This document shows positions 50,980 through 55,771 of a stretch of 64,000 bases of DNA, in pieces. This DNA comes from Caulobacteraceae bacterium (GTDB lineage Bacteria; Pseudomonadota; Alphaproteobacteria; Caulobacterales; Caulobacteraceae): assembly GCA_947475875.1 (NCBI GenBank), contig CANJME010000006.1, positions 62,001 through 126,000 of the forward strand, in the 5' to 3' direction. Position 1 is the stretch's first letter. Every line of letters starts with the position of its first letter. Position numbers and translations under genes: made by a program. Below the pieces are notes generated by a model. That model saw nothing but the letters and a program-made list of their open reading frames with translations. It had not been told where the DNA came from and did not search any database.

Positions 50980-51810
50980 ATGTCTCTCCTGGTCGTCAGC
51001 CTGCATACGCCCGACTACCGCACCAAGGCCGGGCGGCTGGCCGCCAGCTGCGCGGCGTTTGGTCTGCCAACAGCTTTCACCGAGGCGCCAGCGGTTCATC
51101 CCTCGATCTCGGCGCGCGGCGGGGCGATTGGGGGGCCGACCAAACCCGCCCTTATCCGCCAGGCGCTGGCGGCGTCTGGAGAGCCGGTGCTGTGGCTCGA
51201 TGCCGACATGATGGTGCGCGAGCAGCCCGAACATCTTGAGGCTCTGGCCGGAACCTGTGACCTGGCGATCTACAACTGGCTGGCGGACGACCACACCGAC
51301 GCCTGGCGGCCGCTGGAAGGCCAGTCCCGCTACTGGGAATTCCGGCACGCCATCGACTATTTCGATGAGACCCAGCTGTTTTGCAGCGGCGGGACCCAGC
51401 TGTGGTCAGCCACCGAAGCGGCGCTGGCCCTGCTGGATGACTGGCAGGCGGCGATCGAGGCGCATCCCGGCGTGGCGGACGATGAGTGCCTCGATTTTGC
51501 GTTTAACAACCGTGACAATACTGCTCTGCGTCGCGAATGGCTGCGCAAGGACTATGTCCGCCTTCGCTGGTGGCCGCATGTGAAGCCGGTCATCGACCAT
51601 CCCGATCCGACGGGCGAGGGAACGCCCGCCCACCTCCCGGGAACGGGCCAGCGCAAGCGATTCTATCCCGAGCGAGCGAAGATCGTCATGCCGCCGCCAG
51701 GCTCGATCCCCCGCGCGGCGATCATCGATGTGGAAGAGGGCTGGCTCTTGCGCCGGGTTGACGACGAGCTGGTCCGGGTGGAGCCGGCGAAGACCACGTT
51801 CTGGCTCTGA
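50980..51810 (+). CDS. Glycosyltransferase-like (nucleotide-diphospho-sugar transferase fold) protein
   Basis: 276 residues, soluble. The N-terminal strand is MSLLVVSLHTPDYRTKAGRL. A DxD-type motif follows in GEPVLWLDADMMVREQPEHL, preceded by a GPTKPALIRQAL helix, as in GT-A fold glycosyltransferases. SGGTQLWSATEAALALLDDW and DDECLDFAFNN also fit small GT-A enzymes. The donor and acceptor are unknown. It is divergent from the methyltransferase gene (86 bp). The downstream gene is a GT4 glycosyltransferase, so the two may act on the same surface or lipid glycan, which is inference. Confidence 0.75.
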   Translation: MSLLVVSLHTPDYRTKAGRLAASCAAFGLPTAFTEAPAVHPSISARGGAIGGPTKPALIRQALAASGEPVLWLDADMMVREQPEHLEALAGTCDLAIYNWLADDHTDAWRPLEGQSRYWEFRHAIDYFDETQLFCSGGTQLWSATEAALALLDDWQAAIEAHPGVADDECLDFAFNNRDNTALRREWLRKDYVRLRWWPHVKPVIDHPDPTGEGTPAHLPGTGQRKRFYPERAKIVMPPPGSIPRAAIIDVEEGWLLRRVDDELVRVEPAKTTFWL

Positions 51811-51847
51811 ACCCGGGTTCAACCTTCACACGGCTGTCATTGACTTG

Positions 51848-51864
51848 GTTACTGAAATTGTGAC
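51848..51864. promoter_or_regulatory. Imperfect palindrome ahead of the TetR-GT4 gene, possible operator
   Basis: GTTAC (51848-51852) and GTGAC (51860-51864) are inverted half-sites separated by 7 bp, 12 bp before the ATG. TetR-type proteins bind palindromes of this general size, and the following gene starts with a TetR-type HTH. This is only a candidate; the arms pair at four of five positions. Confidence 0.3.
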
Positions 51865-51876
51865 AACGCCACTGAC

Positions 51877-53277
51877 ATGAATGGGGCAATCAAGCCGCAG
51901 ACCGCCGGCGCCACGAGAAGCAGCCAGACGGCCGCCCGGCGCGAAATGATCATGCAGGCGGTCCGCCGCCGGCTGGCCCGGGGCAGTCTGGAAGACTTCA
52001 GCTTCGCCGACATCGCCGCCGATGCGAAGATTGCCGAACGCACTGTCTACCGGCATTTCCCGACCCGCGAGGCGCTGCTGGGCGCCTTCTGGACCTGGAT
52101 GCAGACGCAAGGTCCTGCCGACGAGGCGAGCGATGCGGGCGATGCGCAAGGCGGGACCAAGGCGCCGGCGGATTTTCGCCCCATGCGCATCCTGCTGGCC
52201 ACCGACGCCTGGGAGCCACAGGTCAACGGTGTGGTCCGCACCCTGACGCGCGTGGTCAGTGAAATGCGCGAGATGGGCCATATCGTCGAGGTGATTTCGC
52301 CCGACCAGTTCAAGACTTTTCCCCTGCCGACCTATCCCGAAATCAAGGTCGCCATCGGGGCCTATGAAAAGGTGCAGGAGCGCTTCAAGCAGTTTGAACC
52401 CGAGGCGATCCACGTGGCCACCGAGGGGCCGATCGGCCTCGCCGCCCGGCGCATCTGCGTGGAGTGGAAGCTGCCGTTCACCACCAGCTATCATACGAAA
52501 TTCCCGGAATATATTTCGGCCCGCCTGCCGGTGCCGGTGAGCGCGGGCTATGCCTATATGCGCTGGTTCCACGGGCCATCGGGCCGGCTAATGGTGGCCA
52601 CGCCAACCATGCGCGACGAGCTCACCCGCCACGGGTTTCGCAACATCTCGCCCTGGGCGCGGGGGGTCGACACCGTGATGTTCCGGCCGCGTCGCAAGGG
52701 CGAGCCGGACGTCTTCGAAGGTATGGCGCGGCCGATCTGGGTGAATGTCGGCCGCATCGCCGTGGAAAAGAACATCGAGGCCTTCGCGCGCCTGGACTTG
52801 CCCGGCACCAAGGTGATCGTCGGCGACGGACCGCAACGCGGGGACCTGGCGGCGCGCTATCCCGATCTGGTTTTCGTCGGCACCAAGCACGGCGAGGACC
52901 TGGCCGCCTGCTACGCCTGCGCCGATTGTTTCGTCTTTCCCTCGCTGACCGAGACTTTCGGCCTGGTGATCCTGGAGGCGATGGCGGCGGGAACGCCGGT
53001 GGCCGCCTATCCCGCGCCGGGTCCGATCGACATCATTCCAGGGTCCGACGCCGGAACTCTGGCCGCCACCCCGACCGAGGGCCTGCGCGAGGCCTGCCTT
53101 GAAGCGCTCAAACTCGATCGCAAAACCGTTCGCGCCTATGCCGAGCGCTATTCCTGGCGGGTCTGCGCCGAGGAATTCGTCCGCAACCTGCAACCCTATC
53201 CCGAACCGGAGAAGACCCGGCTGTGGCGGCGCCTGCGACGCCTGGCGCGTTTGCGGCGCAAACCCCTGATCGCCTAA
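51877..53277 (+). CDS. TetR-type DNA-binding domain fused in frame to a GT4 glycosyltransferase
   Basis: 466 residues in one uninterrupted frame. Residues about 20-75 are a TetR N-terminal domain: helix FSFADIAADAKIAERTVYRH and FPTREALLGAFW, including the T-V-Y-R-H-F recognition motif. A 30-residue linker follows, and from Met103 a full GT4 enzyme begins: MRILLATDAWEPQVNGVVRT, then TSYHTKFPEYISARLPVPV, the C-terminal GRIAVEKNIEAF and the E-x7-E motif in SLTETFGLVILEA. The TetR ligand-binding domain is absent. The GT4 family is the MgtA-like lipid mannosyl/glucosyltransferase group. ATG 52183 could start a plain GT, but it lacks a ribosome-binding site, as does 51877. Conserved HTH residues argue that the fusion is translated. 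Confidence 0.8.
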   Translation: MNGAIKPQTAGATRSSQTAARREMIMQAVRRRLARGSLEDFSFADIAADAKIAERTVYRHFPTREALLGAFWTWMQTQGPADEASDAGDAQGGTKAPADFRPMRILLATDAWEPQVNGVVRTLTRVVSEMREMGHIVEVISPDQFKTFPLPTYPEIKVAIGAYEKVQERFKQFEPEAIHVATEGPIGLAARRICVEWKLPFTTSYHTKFPEYISARLPVPVSAGYAYMRWFHGPSGRLMVATPTMRDELTRHGFRNISPWARGVDTVMFRPRRKGEPDVFEGMARPIWVNVGRIAVEKNIEAFARLDLPGTKVIVGDGPQRGDLAARYPDLVFVGTKHGEDLAACYACADCFVFPSLTETFGLVILEAMAAGTPVAAYPAPGPIDIIPGSDAGTLAATPTEGLREACLEALKLDRKTVRAYAERYSWRVCAEEFVRNLQPYPEPEKTRLWRRLRRLARLRRKPLIA

Positions 53278-53327
53278 GGGGCCGCGAGGGTCCGAAAAGT
53301 CTTTACATTCCGGGCGGCGCACCCTAC

Positions 53328-54653
53328 ATGCACGCGTTCCGGCGGACCCAAAGACAACTGCTGCTGCTAACGCCGGATTGGGTTAACGAATACAGGGGTT
53401 TACGTGAATTGCACACGTACCATACTCCCCTGGACCTGGTCCGTGAGCGGTCTGTCGAACGTCCTGTCGCCCTTGTGCGACCGGCCGCGGCGGCTCTAGC
53501 GGCAAACTGGTTCAGGGATAGATTTCAAGGCTCGGTCTTTTACGCGGTAAAGGCGAACCCTTCGCCGTGGGCGGTCGAAACGCTGTACGCCAATGGCATC
53601 GGCGCATTTGACGTCGCCTCCATTCCGGAGATTGAGCTCGTCGCCCAGCACGCGCCCGGCGCGCGCATGGCCTTCATGCACCCGGTCAAGAACCGCCGGG
53701 CGATCTCGGCCGCCTATTTCGATCACGGCGTGCGGATCTTCTCGCTCGACACCCATGAAGAGCTGGCCAAGATCCTGGAGGCGACCGGCAACGCCAAGGA
53801 TCTGATCCTGATGGTGCGCATGGCGGTCTCGACCGATGGCGCGAGCTATCCCCTGGCCGGCAAGTTCGGCATCGAGGCCCACAACGCTCCTGAACTGCTG
53901 CTGGCCGCGCGTCGGGCGACCGACGATCTGATGGGCGTGGCCTTCCACGTCGGCAGCCAGTGCATGCGCCCCACTGCCTATCAGGCGGCGATGAGCCAGG
54001 TTTCCCGCAGCCTCGTGCGCGCCGGCGTCTTCGCTGATGTGGTCGATGTCGGCGGCGGCTTCCCCTCAGTTTATCCGGGCATGATCCCGCCGGCCATGGA
54101 CGACTATGCGGCCTCGATCCACCGCGGTTTCGAGGAGATGAAGGTCCACGAAACCACCGAGCTGTGGTGCGAGCCCGGCCGGGCGTTGGTGGCCGAAGCC
54201 TCCTCGCTGCTGACCCAGGTCGAACTGCGCAAGGGTGACGCGCTCTATCTGAACGATGGGGCTTACGGCGCGCTGTTCGACGCGGCCCACACCAAGTGGC
54301 CTTTCCCCTCGCGCCTGGTGCGTGATGGCGAGGCTTCGGCTGAGCTGAAACCCTACCGGTTCTATGGTCCGACCTGCGATTCTCTCGACCAGATGGCCGG
54401 CCCGTTCTGGCTGCCCGCTGATGTGCGCGAAGGCGACTTCATCGAGATCGGCATGCTGGGCGCCTATGGCGTGGCGCTGGCGACACGGTTCAACGGCTAC
54501 GGCGACATCGATGCCGCCATCGTCGAGGACGCGCCCATGGCCTCGATGTACGGCCTTGCGCCTCGGGCCATCCCGACGCCGAAGTCGGACGCCGCGCCCG
54601 CCAATGTCGTGAAGTTTTCACGCGCCCGTGGAAAGAAGCGCCGGCGCAGGTAG
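53328..54653 (+). CDS. Ornithine/lysine/diamino acid decarboxylase, alanine-racemase fold (type III)
   Basis: 441 residues from ATG 53328; the 35 upstream in-frame codons overlap the preceding gene end and are not family-like. The PLP lysine is in VFYAVKANPSPWAVE, FGIEAHNAPELL and HVGSQCMRPTAYQAAM are the PLP-phosphate region, and GGGFPSVYPG and the catalytic Cys in FYGPTCDSLDQM are present. It makes putrescine or cadaverine from ornithine or lysine. The C-terminus carries a very basic tail (SRARGKKRRRR). The next gene is a deoxyhypusine-synthase homologue, so a polyamine pathway is likely. Confidence 0.92.
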   Translation: MHAFRRTQRQLLLLTPDWVNEYRGLRELHTYHTPLDLVRERSVERPVALVRPAAAALAANWFRDRFQGSVFYAVKANPSPWAVETLYANGIGAFDVASIPEIELVAQHAPGARMAFMHPVKNRRAISAAYFDHGVRIFSLDTHEELAKILEATGNAKDLILMVRMAVSTDGASYPLAGKFGIEAHNAPELLLAARRATDDLMGVAFHVGSQCMRPTAYQAAMSQVSRSLVRAGVFADVVDVGGGFPSVYPGMIPPAMDDYAASIHRGFEEMKVHETTELWCEPGRALVAEASSLLTQVELRKGDALYLNDGAYGALFDAAHTKWPFPSRLVRDGEASAELKPYRFYGPTCDSLDQMAGPFWLPADVREGDFIEIGMLGAYGVALATRFNGYGDIDAAIVEDAPMASMYGLAPRAIPTPKSDAAPANVVKFSRARGKKRRRR

Positions 54654-54724
54654 TTCTCGTTCTCAGCCGTCATCACCGTCCGGCCTAACGACGGAGCAGC
54701 CCTTTCTTTTGGGAGCCCCTCGCC

Positions 54725-55771
54725 ATGAACACCCCTCCGCCGAACCGCAAAGCCGAACTGCTGGCCACCGTGGTCGAGCACGTCGACATCACCTCCTACG
54801 ATGCCCGGCCGGTCATCAACGCCATGCGCAAGATGAGCTTTTCATCGCGCGATACGGCCAGAGCCGCCGACATCCTCAACATGGCCATCGAGGACAAGGA
54901 CTGTTCGACCTGGCTGATCCTGGCCGGATCGACGTCGGCCGGCGGCTGCATGCACGTCTATCGTGACATGGTCCGCGCCGGGATGATGGATGTGGTGGTG
55001 GCCACCGGCGCCTCCATCGTCGACATGGATTTCTTCGAGGCCCTGGGCTTCAAGCACTATCAGGCGGCCGGTCCCGTGGATGACAACATCCTGCGCGAAA
55101 ACTACGTCGACCGCATCTACGACACCTATATCGACGAGGAGGAACTGCAGGCCTGCGATGCGACGATCTTCGAGATCGCCGAGAGCCTGGAGCCGCGCCC
55201 CTATTCGTCCCGCGAGTTCATCCAGGAGATGGGCAAGTGGCTGGCGGCGGGCAACGCGAAGAAGCCCGGCAGCCTGATCCAGACGGCCTATGAGGAAGGC
55301 GTGCCGATCTTCTGTCCGGCTTTTGTCGACTCATCGGCCGGCTTCGGCCTGGTCAAGCACCAGAAGGAGCGGATGAAGGCGAAGAAGCCCTACATGTCCA
55401 TCGACGCGGTGGCCGATTTCCGTGAGCTGACCGATGTGAAGATCGCGGCCGGGACCACGGGCCTGTTCATGGTTGGTGGCGGCGTGCCCAAGAACTTCGC
55501 CCAGGACACCGTCGTCTGCGCCGAGATCCTCGGCATCGAGGCCGACATGCACAAATATGCGGTGCAGATCACCGTCGCTGACGTGCGCGACGGCGCCTGC
55601 TCGTCCTCGACCCTTCAGGAGGCCGCCTCCTGGGGCAAGGTGCAGACGGTGTGGGAGCAGATGGTGTTCGCCGAAGCCACCACCGTGGTGCCGCTGATCG
55701 CGTCGGACGCCTGGCACAGGGGCGGCTGGAAGACGCGCGAAAAGCGCCGTTGGGCGAAGCTGTTCAGCTAG
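54725..55771 (+). CDS. Deoxyhypusine-synthase-family protein, probable homospermidine-type polyamine enzyme
   Basis: 348 residues with the DHS fold. Landmarks are the NAD-binding segments STWLILAGSTSAGGCMHVYR and MMDVVVATGASIVDMDFFEA, GLFMVGGGVPKNFAQDTVV, and the active-site lysine region TLQEAASWGKVQTV. Bacteria do not make hypusine on an eIF5A homologue (EF-P differs), so such enzymes are thought to make homospermidine or related polyamines by aminobutyl transfer. It follows the decarboxylase by 71 bp with GGGAG before ATG 54725. Product identity is inferred from context. Confidence 0.88.
   Translation: MNTPPPNRKAELLATVVEHVDITSYDARPVINAMRKMSFSSRDTARAADILNMAIEDKDCSTWLILAGSTSAGGCMHVYRDMVRAGMMDVVVATGASIVDMDFFEALGFKHYQAAGPVDDNILRENYVDRIYDTYIDEEELQACDATIFEIAESLEPRPYSSREFIQEMGKWLAAGNAKKPGSLIQTAYEEGVPIFCPAFVDSSAGFGLVKHQKERMKAKKPYMSIDAVADFRELTDVKIAAGTTGLFMVGGGVPKNFAQDTVVCAEILGIEADMHKYAVQITVADVRDGACSSSTLQEAASWGKVQTVWEQMVFAEATTVVPLIASDAWHRGGWKTREKRRWAKLFS

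Follow-up and report, generated by a model that had tools for sequence, protein, structure and literature searches.

A TetR-type DNA-binding domain in one reading frame with a GT4 glycosyltransferase, a probable self-repressing enzyme of Phenylobacterium and a second genus

The stretch of DNA analyzed here (the window, 64,000 nucleotides) contains a single open frame in which a TetR-type helix-turn-helix (HTH) precedes a complete GT4 glycosyltransferase (Table 1). The initial annotation had proposed this arrangement, and it was borne out by the frame, by Pfam and by an AlphaFold2 model. Pfam placed TetR_N at residues 25-70 (31.8 bits, against a cut-off of 24), Glyco_transf_4 at residues 116-266 (68.5 bits) and Glyco_trans_1_4 at residues 289-411 (72.4 bits), the last two above their curated cut-offs. 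PF13439, PF13692 and PF00534 all exceeded their cut-offs in the fused protein. The AlphaFold2 model, for which 34 window and locus sequences served as input, had a mean pLDDT of 81.2 over the 466-aa protein. It contained four helices in the HTH part (10-35, 43-50, 54-60 and 64-77), a linker segment with pLDDT below 50 (residues 80-97) and a GT-B fold from residue 104 on. Matching PDB structures covered residues 100-446 of the model; the fold matched MshA (Z 32.1, 331 residues, rmsd 2.7), BshA and PimA. The GT4 enzyme part starts at Met103, which is the start codon of the unfused relatives. The C-terminal helical domain of TetR proteins, which serves ligand binding and dimerization, is absent. 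This loss had likewise been noticed at the outset, and both Pfam and the model place the GT-B glycosyltransferase there instead (residues 103-466). Therefore, we did not file the protein as a TetR family regulator, only as a carrier of an HTH.

The residues H206, R293, K298 and E367 were invariant among 73 fused sequences, and position 359 was D in 71 of the 73 and E in the other two. We take the GT4 signature to be a motif of the E-x7-E type together with basic donor-site residues, and it is intact in the fused enzyme. With its GT-B fold and GT4-type profile, the fused protein qualifies as a GT4 glycosyltransferase. The R, W and L columns at 448-461 were invariant or nearly so in 34 fused and unfused enzymes, and the basic C-terminal helix would suit a membrane-contact element, for which it is a candidate.

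Table 1. Features of the fused gene and of its upstream region (positions in the window)
Feature	Position	Strand	Basis and remarks
Fused TetR-HTH / GT4 glycosyltransferase gene, 466 aa	51877..53277	+	Open frame; Pfam TetR_N and GT4 domains; fusion kept in G001, G002 and Phenylobacterium
TetR_N HTH, residues ~10-77, recognition helix 54-60	51904..52107	+	Pfam; model helices; dN/dS
Variable low-confidence linker, residues 78-102	52108..52182	+	pLDDT; dN/dS; length variation among relatives
GT4 glycosyltransferase domain, residues 103-466	52183..53274	+	Pfam; GT-B fold matches; invariant residues
Conserved basic C-terminal helix, residues 443-459	53203..53253	+	Conserved columns; model helix
Putative operator, inverted repeat TGACAACGCCACTGACA	51861..51877		Consensus TGACAGT-N3-ACTGTCA; 3/14 mismatches here; ends on the start-codon A
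-35-like element TTGACT, -37 to -32 before the ATG	51840..51845	+	Conserved columns -37 to -33 in 78 loci

Immediately upstream of the fused gene, the window encodes a 276-aa protein (50980-51810) for which neither Pfam nor NCBIfam gave a match; its gene is in turn preceded by one for a cytosine methylase. Decarboxylase and homospermidine-synthase-like genes follow the fused gene (53223-55771). The first encodes a lysA-like PLP decarboxylase that fell below the lysA cut-off, and the second passed the NCBIfam cut-off for 1,9-bis(guanidino)-5-aza-nonane synthase. The two are probably a polyamine pair.

Within the same family, 364 of the 390 genomes searched contained the enzyme at E <= 1e-130. 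Among the matches listed, those from the window genus (three genomes) and from Phenylobacterium extended through the HTH; those from other genera began near the start of the enzyme, and the relatives sampled from other genera carried the enzyme alone. One locus of the same family (L023 in genome G012) matched from residue 42, yet its frame had no HTH. In two genomes of another family, the matches started at residue 75 (G042) and residue 69 (G054). A profile built from the N-terminal part was also run against named genomes, and the best 80 of 160 relatives were kept. The 80 loci were titled Phenylobacterium, Caulobacteraceae, Caulobacterales, Alphaproteobacteria, Pseudomonadota, Proteobacteria or 'bacterium'. 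HTH and enzyme shared one open frame in all 80 (best 80 of 160 relatives). Whether related genomes keep the fusion, a point raised by the initial annotation, can thus be answered positively for two genera. Separate genes divided by a stop codon or a frameshift, which would have spoken for the opposite, were not encountered: eight unfused loci had no separate gene for this HTH before the enzyme, and five Phenylobacterium genomes that at first seemed unfused proved to be fused with a longer linker. This linker check covered those five and left out other low-scoring genomes, such as G346, G369, G372, G374 and G406.

An assembly or frameshift artefact was ruled out, as the fusion recurs across many genomes. 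Secondary loss in some Phenylobacterium was ruled out for the five genomes mentioned, which had been missed by reason of linker length. A plasmid origin was ruled out by the plasmid records, none of which covers 80% of the protein. In a tree of the enzyme part, from which 11 near-duplicate fused rows were left out, the fused rows formed two supported groups, one of the window genus (3 rows) and one of Phenylobacterium (18 rows). A single origin of the fusion would be compatible with this tree, though its backbone does not resolve the point.

Alignment of the regions upstream of 32 fused genes uncovered a conserved element that abuts the start codon. In 78 non-redundant loci (one row per distinct N-terminus; L168, L172, L195 and L236-L238 were left out by a strict pattern), it reads TTGACA at -37 and then TGACAGT-N3-ACTGTCA, the final A being the A of the ATG. 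A palindrome had initially been suspected at 51848-51864, but the conserved dyad is another one, at 51861-51877. Anchored at the start codon, the dyad had 0-4 mismatches in 14 positions in all of the best 80 of 160 relatives (0, 1, 2, 3 and 4 mismatches in 15, 29, 26, 8 and 2 loci, respectively). This count takes the in-frame ATG with the fewest mismatches, there being one candidate in 65 loci, two in 14 and three in one. With the first in-frame ATG alone, 0-4 mismatches were still obtained in 79 of the 80 (best 80 of 160). At the same place, 25 unfused enzyme genes had 7-12 mismatches, and none had a word with fewer than 5 within 400 bp; one of the 25 had a 4-mismatch word within 1.5 kb. It seems that the fused gene carries a palindromic operator at its own promoter, as TetR regulators do.

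Whole genomes were surveyed for the palindrome. The exact core TGACAG-N5-CTGTCA occurred in 33 of 60 Phenylobacterium genomes, versus 3 of 60 for the reversed control. For an unfused genus, the figures were 7 of 61 genomes and, for the control, 1 of 61. The 37 exact Phenylobacterium sites comprised 25 at the start of the fused gene, six at a transpeptidase gene and six elsewhere; of the last six, four were read (G397 and G400 were left out). Five of the seven sites in the unfused genus were distant from the enzyme or on a different contig, and the other two were in genomes that had no enzyme position among the matches listed. In the window genus, the site has drifted to TGACAA-N5-CTG[AT]CA. 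This form (TGACAANNNNNCTGWCA), which was derived from the three gene sites of the genus themselves, occurs once in the whole genome to which the window belongs (G000, at 51861-51877), once in G001 and twice in G002, with the own gene hit each time and a control of 0. The second occurrence in G002 (L293, G002:C124:8019-8035) is a TGACAA-N5-CTGTCA that overlaps an ATG followed by MSALADHILAHAEAAPEGTTLRAKELL. A broad regulon was rejected: at one mismatch or fewer, the general form gave only own-gene and transpeptidase sites in six of ten genomes, and it was absent from G000, G001, G002 and G326.

The origin of the HTH was approached by searching 24 chosen genomes with the HTH profile, which returned fused genes and full-length TetRs. 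For the site, 18 of the 30 loci were examined, and four of the remainder were fused genes. The closest full-length TetRs (L243-L246) have two tandem copies of this palindrome at the start of their own genes. A TetR of this type reached E <= 1e-12 in eight of 60 genomes from one family (f3); the eight belong to a single genus, and three had already been counted within L243-L246. The operator-bearing standalone TetRs are thus nine, L243 plus the eight of this family (L244-L246 and L285-L289), and they are proteins of 196-209 aa with the TetR C-terminal half. As eight of the nine are from one genus, they are not independent. The palindrome was on the start codon in all nine, with no mismatch in seven, one in L246 and two in L243, whose start codon is GTG. 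A second copy with 0-2 mismatches was found 20 bp upstream (19 in L243) in 9/9, and in the fused genes the TTGACA at -37 falls where this upstream copy has its left half. No site was present at the start of 14 other TetRs examined, and L260 had a 3-mismatch word about 630 bp from the gene. L259, which lacks the site, scored 71.9 bits with the HTH profile versus 72.9 for the lowest operator-bearing TetR; therefore, the boundary between site-bearing and site-free TetRs is not wide. L259 (G349:C1 near 2822773) has a start-codon palindrome of the other orientation, TGTCA-N6-TGACA, and is perhaps a diverged paralogue with a changed operator. A similar small gene adjoins tetR in L243 and L244, which belong to two different families, and might be a partner or target of the regulator. 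A conventional TetR gene located divergently near the locus was rejected as the source of the HTH, as its HTH sequence differs (judged by eye).

These alignments show that the putative operator and the -35-like element of the fused gene match those of the closest TetR subfamily in both sequence and position. As the closest TetRs have the same palindrome in the same place, the fusion appears to have acquired its autoregulatory promoter, as well as its DNA-binding domain, from a TetR gene. The simplest account would be that an enzyme gene came to be preceded, in frame, by the 5' portion of a TetR gene together with its promoter and operator. The nine standalone TetRs, which we infer to repress themselves, share with the fused gene the closest HTH, the start-codon palindrome and the -35-like element. 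They differ in having the TetR C-terminal half and two operator copies, whereas the fused gene has one operator, half of a second copy and an enzyme replacing the sensor.

Conservation of the palindrome could also mean that another regulator, a different TetR or PhoB, binds it and that the fused HTH acts elsewhere or nowhere. The half-sites of PhoB (CTGTCAT) are similar to the arms of the dyad, and a related TetR (L259) is present in one Phenylobacterium genome. Related glycolipid enzymes are linked to phosphate (PMC8231724, PMC6445935), which would fit such a regulator too. However, the arms are inverted and not direct repeats, and the same dyad stands in the same phase on 9/9 of the closest standalone tetR genes. 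Furthermore, the fused gene was the sole match to the HTH profile at E <= 1e-6 in G000 and G001, and the 25 unfused enzyme genes lack the site. We consider control by another regulator unlikely. A role of the dyad as an mRNA hairpin at the start codon, in place of a DNA operator, is highly improbable. Its arms could pair in the mRNA and cover the AUG, but the pair -14/-2 was neither Watson-Crick nor G-U in 26 of the 78 loci. A further upstream copy in the standalone tetR genes, and a copy about 130 bp before another gene in a subclade, also do not suit a hairpin. The predicted binding of the start-codon dyad by the fused HTH, with self-repression as its effect, is well supported by these sequence comparisons.

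We estimated selection on the two parts of the fused gene from 2407 pairs of 73 fused sequences. The pairs were those with enzyme dS <1.2, and the set of 73 omits L167 (the motif used required Met) and rows under 440 aa. The median dN/dS was 0.28 for HTH residues 20-76 versus 0.19 for the enzyme, and in the same pairs the linker had a mean dN of 0.57 and a mean dS of 0.85. Judged by these ratios, the HTH is under purifying selection and evolves somewhat faster than the enzyme. A dN/dS of about 0.28 means that the HTH is translated and constrained. The HTH might be viewed as a passive relic, or a mere N-terminal extension, of a gene in which the glycosyltransferase alone works, considering that the ligand-binding domain is gone, that the HTH diverges somewhat faster than the enzyme and that the linker is variable. 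Against this stand the purifying selection, the conserved operator and the recognition-helix motif ERT[VI]YR[HY], which was present in 80/80 named loci (best 80 of 160 relatives), and we regard a relic as very unlikely. The suggestion of a recent fusion with a working glycosyltransferase part alone, made in the initial annotation, is contradicted by the spread over two genera, by the selection on the HTH and by the operator in all of the best 80 of 160 relatives. We take these comparisons to show that the fusion is old and maintained by selection.

Neither ATG 51877 nor ATG 52183 has a clear Shine-Dalgarno (SD) sequence, as had been remarked before, and the relatives are alike in this respect: SD-like words preceded the long-ORF ATG in 3 of 78 sequences and the internal ATG in 8 of 73, the latter below a background of 22%. 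Of the best 80 of 160 relatives, 79 have ATG as the internal codon (at the position of 52183); L167, a fused relative, has CTG there. Both this CTG and the selection on the HTH argue against translation solely from 52183. Internal initiation at ATG 52183 could instead yield two products, a full-length regulator-enzyme and a free enzyme, and the near-universal internal ATG would favor this. Nevertheless, SD-like words are rarer than background at that place, L167 dispenses with the ATG, and Met103 could be retained for the fold, because many enzyme columns are invariant. Two products are therefore improbable in our judgment.

The gene neighborhood gave some indication of the role of the enzyme. 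In 53 of the 80 fused loci (best 80 of 160 relatives), tblastn placed a calcineurin-like phosphoesterase gene immediately upstream in the same orientation, 51 by a distance rule plus L221 and L233, in which the open frame overlaps the phosphoesterase. It was directly upstream in 15 of 25 unfused loci as well. In the two cases tested, the phosphoesterase was above the Pfam cut-off and below the LpxH NCBIfam cut-offs. A similar phosphoesterase-enzyme pair is borne by a Roseomonas plasmid. The LpxH/PlcP-like phosphoesterase before the fused or unfused gene recalls the plcP-agt pair of lipid remodelling, PlcP being likened by type. In the plcP-agt arrangement, diacylglycerol derived from phospholipid is glycosylated (PMC8231724). 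Agt and GTcp of such loci are GT4 enzymes of GT-B fold, as is the fused enzyme, a likeness of fold class and gene order; the available part of that paper describes no DNA-binding domain for them (PMC8231724), whereas the fused enzyme has one. The NCBIfam models of glycolipid synthases matched the fused enzyme far below their cut-offs. The phosphoesterase had no match within the stretch searched in 26 of the 80 fused loci (best 80 of 160 relatives), was elsewhere in one, and was upstream in 0/3 window-genus loci; the case for a glycolipid role is weak for this reason. Loci L159-L173 and others among the 26 still keep the fusion and the operator. The fused enzyme may be a membrane glycolipid synthase, a role that we infer from those relatives in which the phosphoesterase pairing is seen.

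Taken together, the fused gene probably encodes an autorepressing glycosyltransferase, in which the DNA-binding end of a TetR has exchanged its ligand-binding domain for a GT4 enzyme. Given that the palindrome overlaps the start codon of the fused gene, self-control of enzyme production is very probable. A pair of protein molecules would hold the palindrome over the start codon and shut off transcription of the gene that encodes them, and the enzyme would thereby set its own level. A point against this is that TetR proteins normally dimerize through the domain that is missing from the fused protein. Less certainly, the glycosyltransferase part might replace the lost TetR sensor: an enzyme engaged with its sugar donor or membrane lipid acceptor would be less free for DNA, and the gene would be derepressed. 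With an enzyme in place of the sensor domain, engagement of substrate or membrane would be the likeliest release signal, by analogy to PutA. Of the readings offered by the initial annotation, DNA tethering of a glycosyltransferase and gating of a regulator by its glycosyl donor are both still compatible with these results, now narrowed to putative autoregulation at one identified site.

To our knowledge, few enzymes are direct repressors of their own genes, and PutA is the usual example. The fused protein is formally like PutA, whose N-terminal DNA-binding domain makes the enzyme a repressor of its own gene, and which switches between a DNA-bound repressor and a membrane-bound enzyme (PMC5293562). 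Other members of the PutA family are the same enzyme without the DNA-binding domain, which parallels the fused and unfused GT4 enzymes (PMC5293562). The DNA-binding domain of PutA is a ribbon-helix-helix that is also its dimerizer, and the response to proline passes through the flavin (PMC5293562), whereas the fused protein has a TetR-type domain and a glycosyltransferase as putative switch. In having an enzyme and a DNA-binding domain in one chain, with a predicted site at its own gene, the fused protein resembles PutA by analogy, and no homology is claimed.

In the literature searched, we found no TetR-glycosyltransferase fusion and nothing on Phenylobacterium glycolipids. Judged by this literature, the regulator-enzyme fusion is undescribed, a probable further form of enzyme that represses its own gene, with its operator probably identified. 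It suggests a route of origin in which a TetR gene contributes promoter, operator and DNA-binding domain, joined in frame to the front of a metabolic enzyme that replaces the sensor. The relatives with and without the fusion, together with the standalone TetRs that have the same operator, form a natural experiment. The fusion also provides a specific, testable mechanism by which the amount of an envelope glycosyltransferase might be metered in bacteria.

The second location of the palindrome hints at a link to peptidoglycan cross-linking. The six Phenylobacterium sites mentioned above lie between a lysine-2,3-aminomutase-like gene and a transpeptidase-type gene. The one transpeptidase-type gene tested has Scaffold, PG_binding_1 and YkuD domains, presumably the make-up of YcbB/LdtD-type L,D-transpeptidases. 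This palindrome was found in a Phenylobacterium subclade only (L088, L089 and L091-L094, in G317, G325, G366, G331, G369 and G346). Of the 15 closest orthologues in 60 genomes, eight had the site at 0-1 mismatch and G008 had it at 3, and it was not found in G353, G344, G362, G409, G314 and G363. The match in G363 begins at residue 138, so the stretch examined is probably not its true upstream region. Homologues of the transpeptidase gene read from other genera had no site either, and together with the six orthologues just named they led us to reject the site as an ancestral part of the regulon. In E. coli, LdtD is activated upon failure of outer-membrane assembly (PMC6428754), so an envelope link of the second site is conceivable. 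A more far-reaching reading is that a membrane-glycolipid synthase acts as its own transcription factor, the TetR head repressing its own gene, and the YcbB-like L,D-transpeptidase gene in one Phenylobacterium subclade, until the lipid acceptor pulls the catalytic domain to the membrane or the sugar donor occupies it. We put this forward tentatively and consider it rather doubtful. If it were true, an enzyme that makes an envelope lipid would sense lipid composition and relay it to cell-wall cross-linking. In the upstream alignment of the transpeptidase genes, the dyad stands out from its surroundings, and other short blocks are conserved too.
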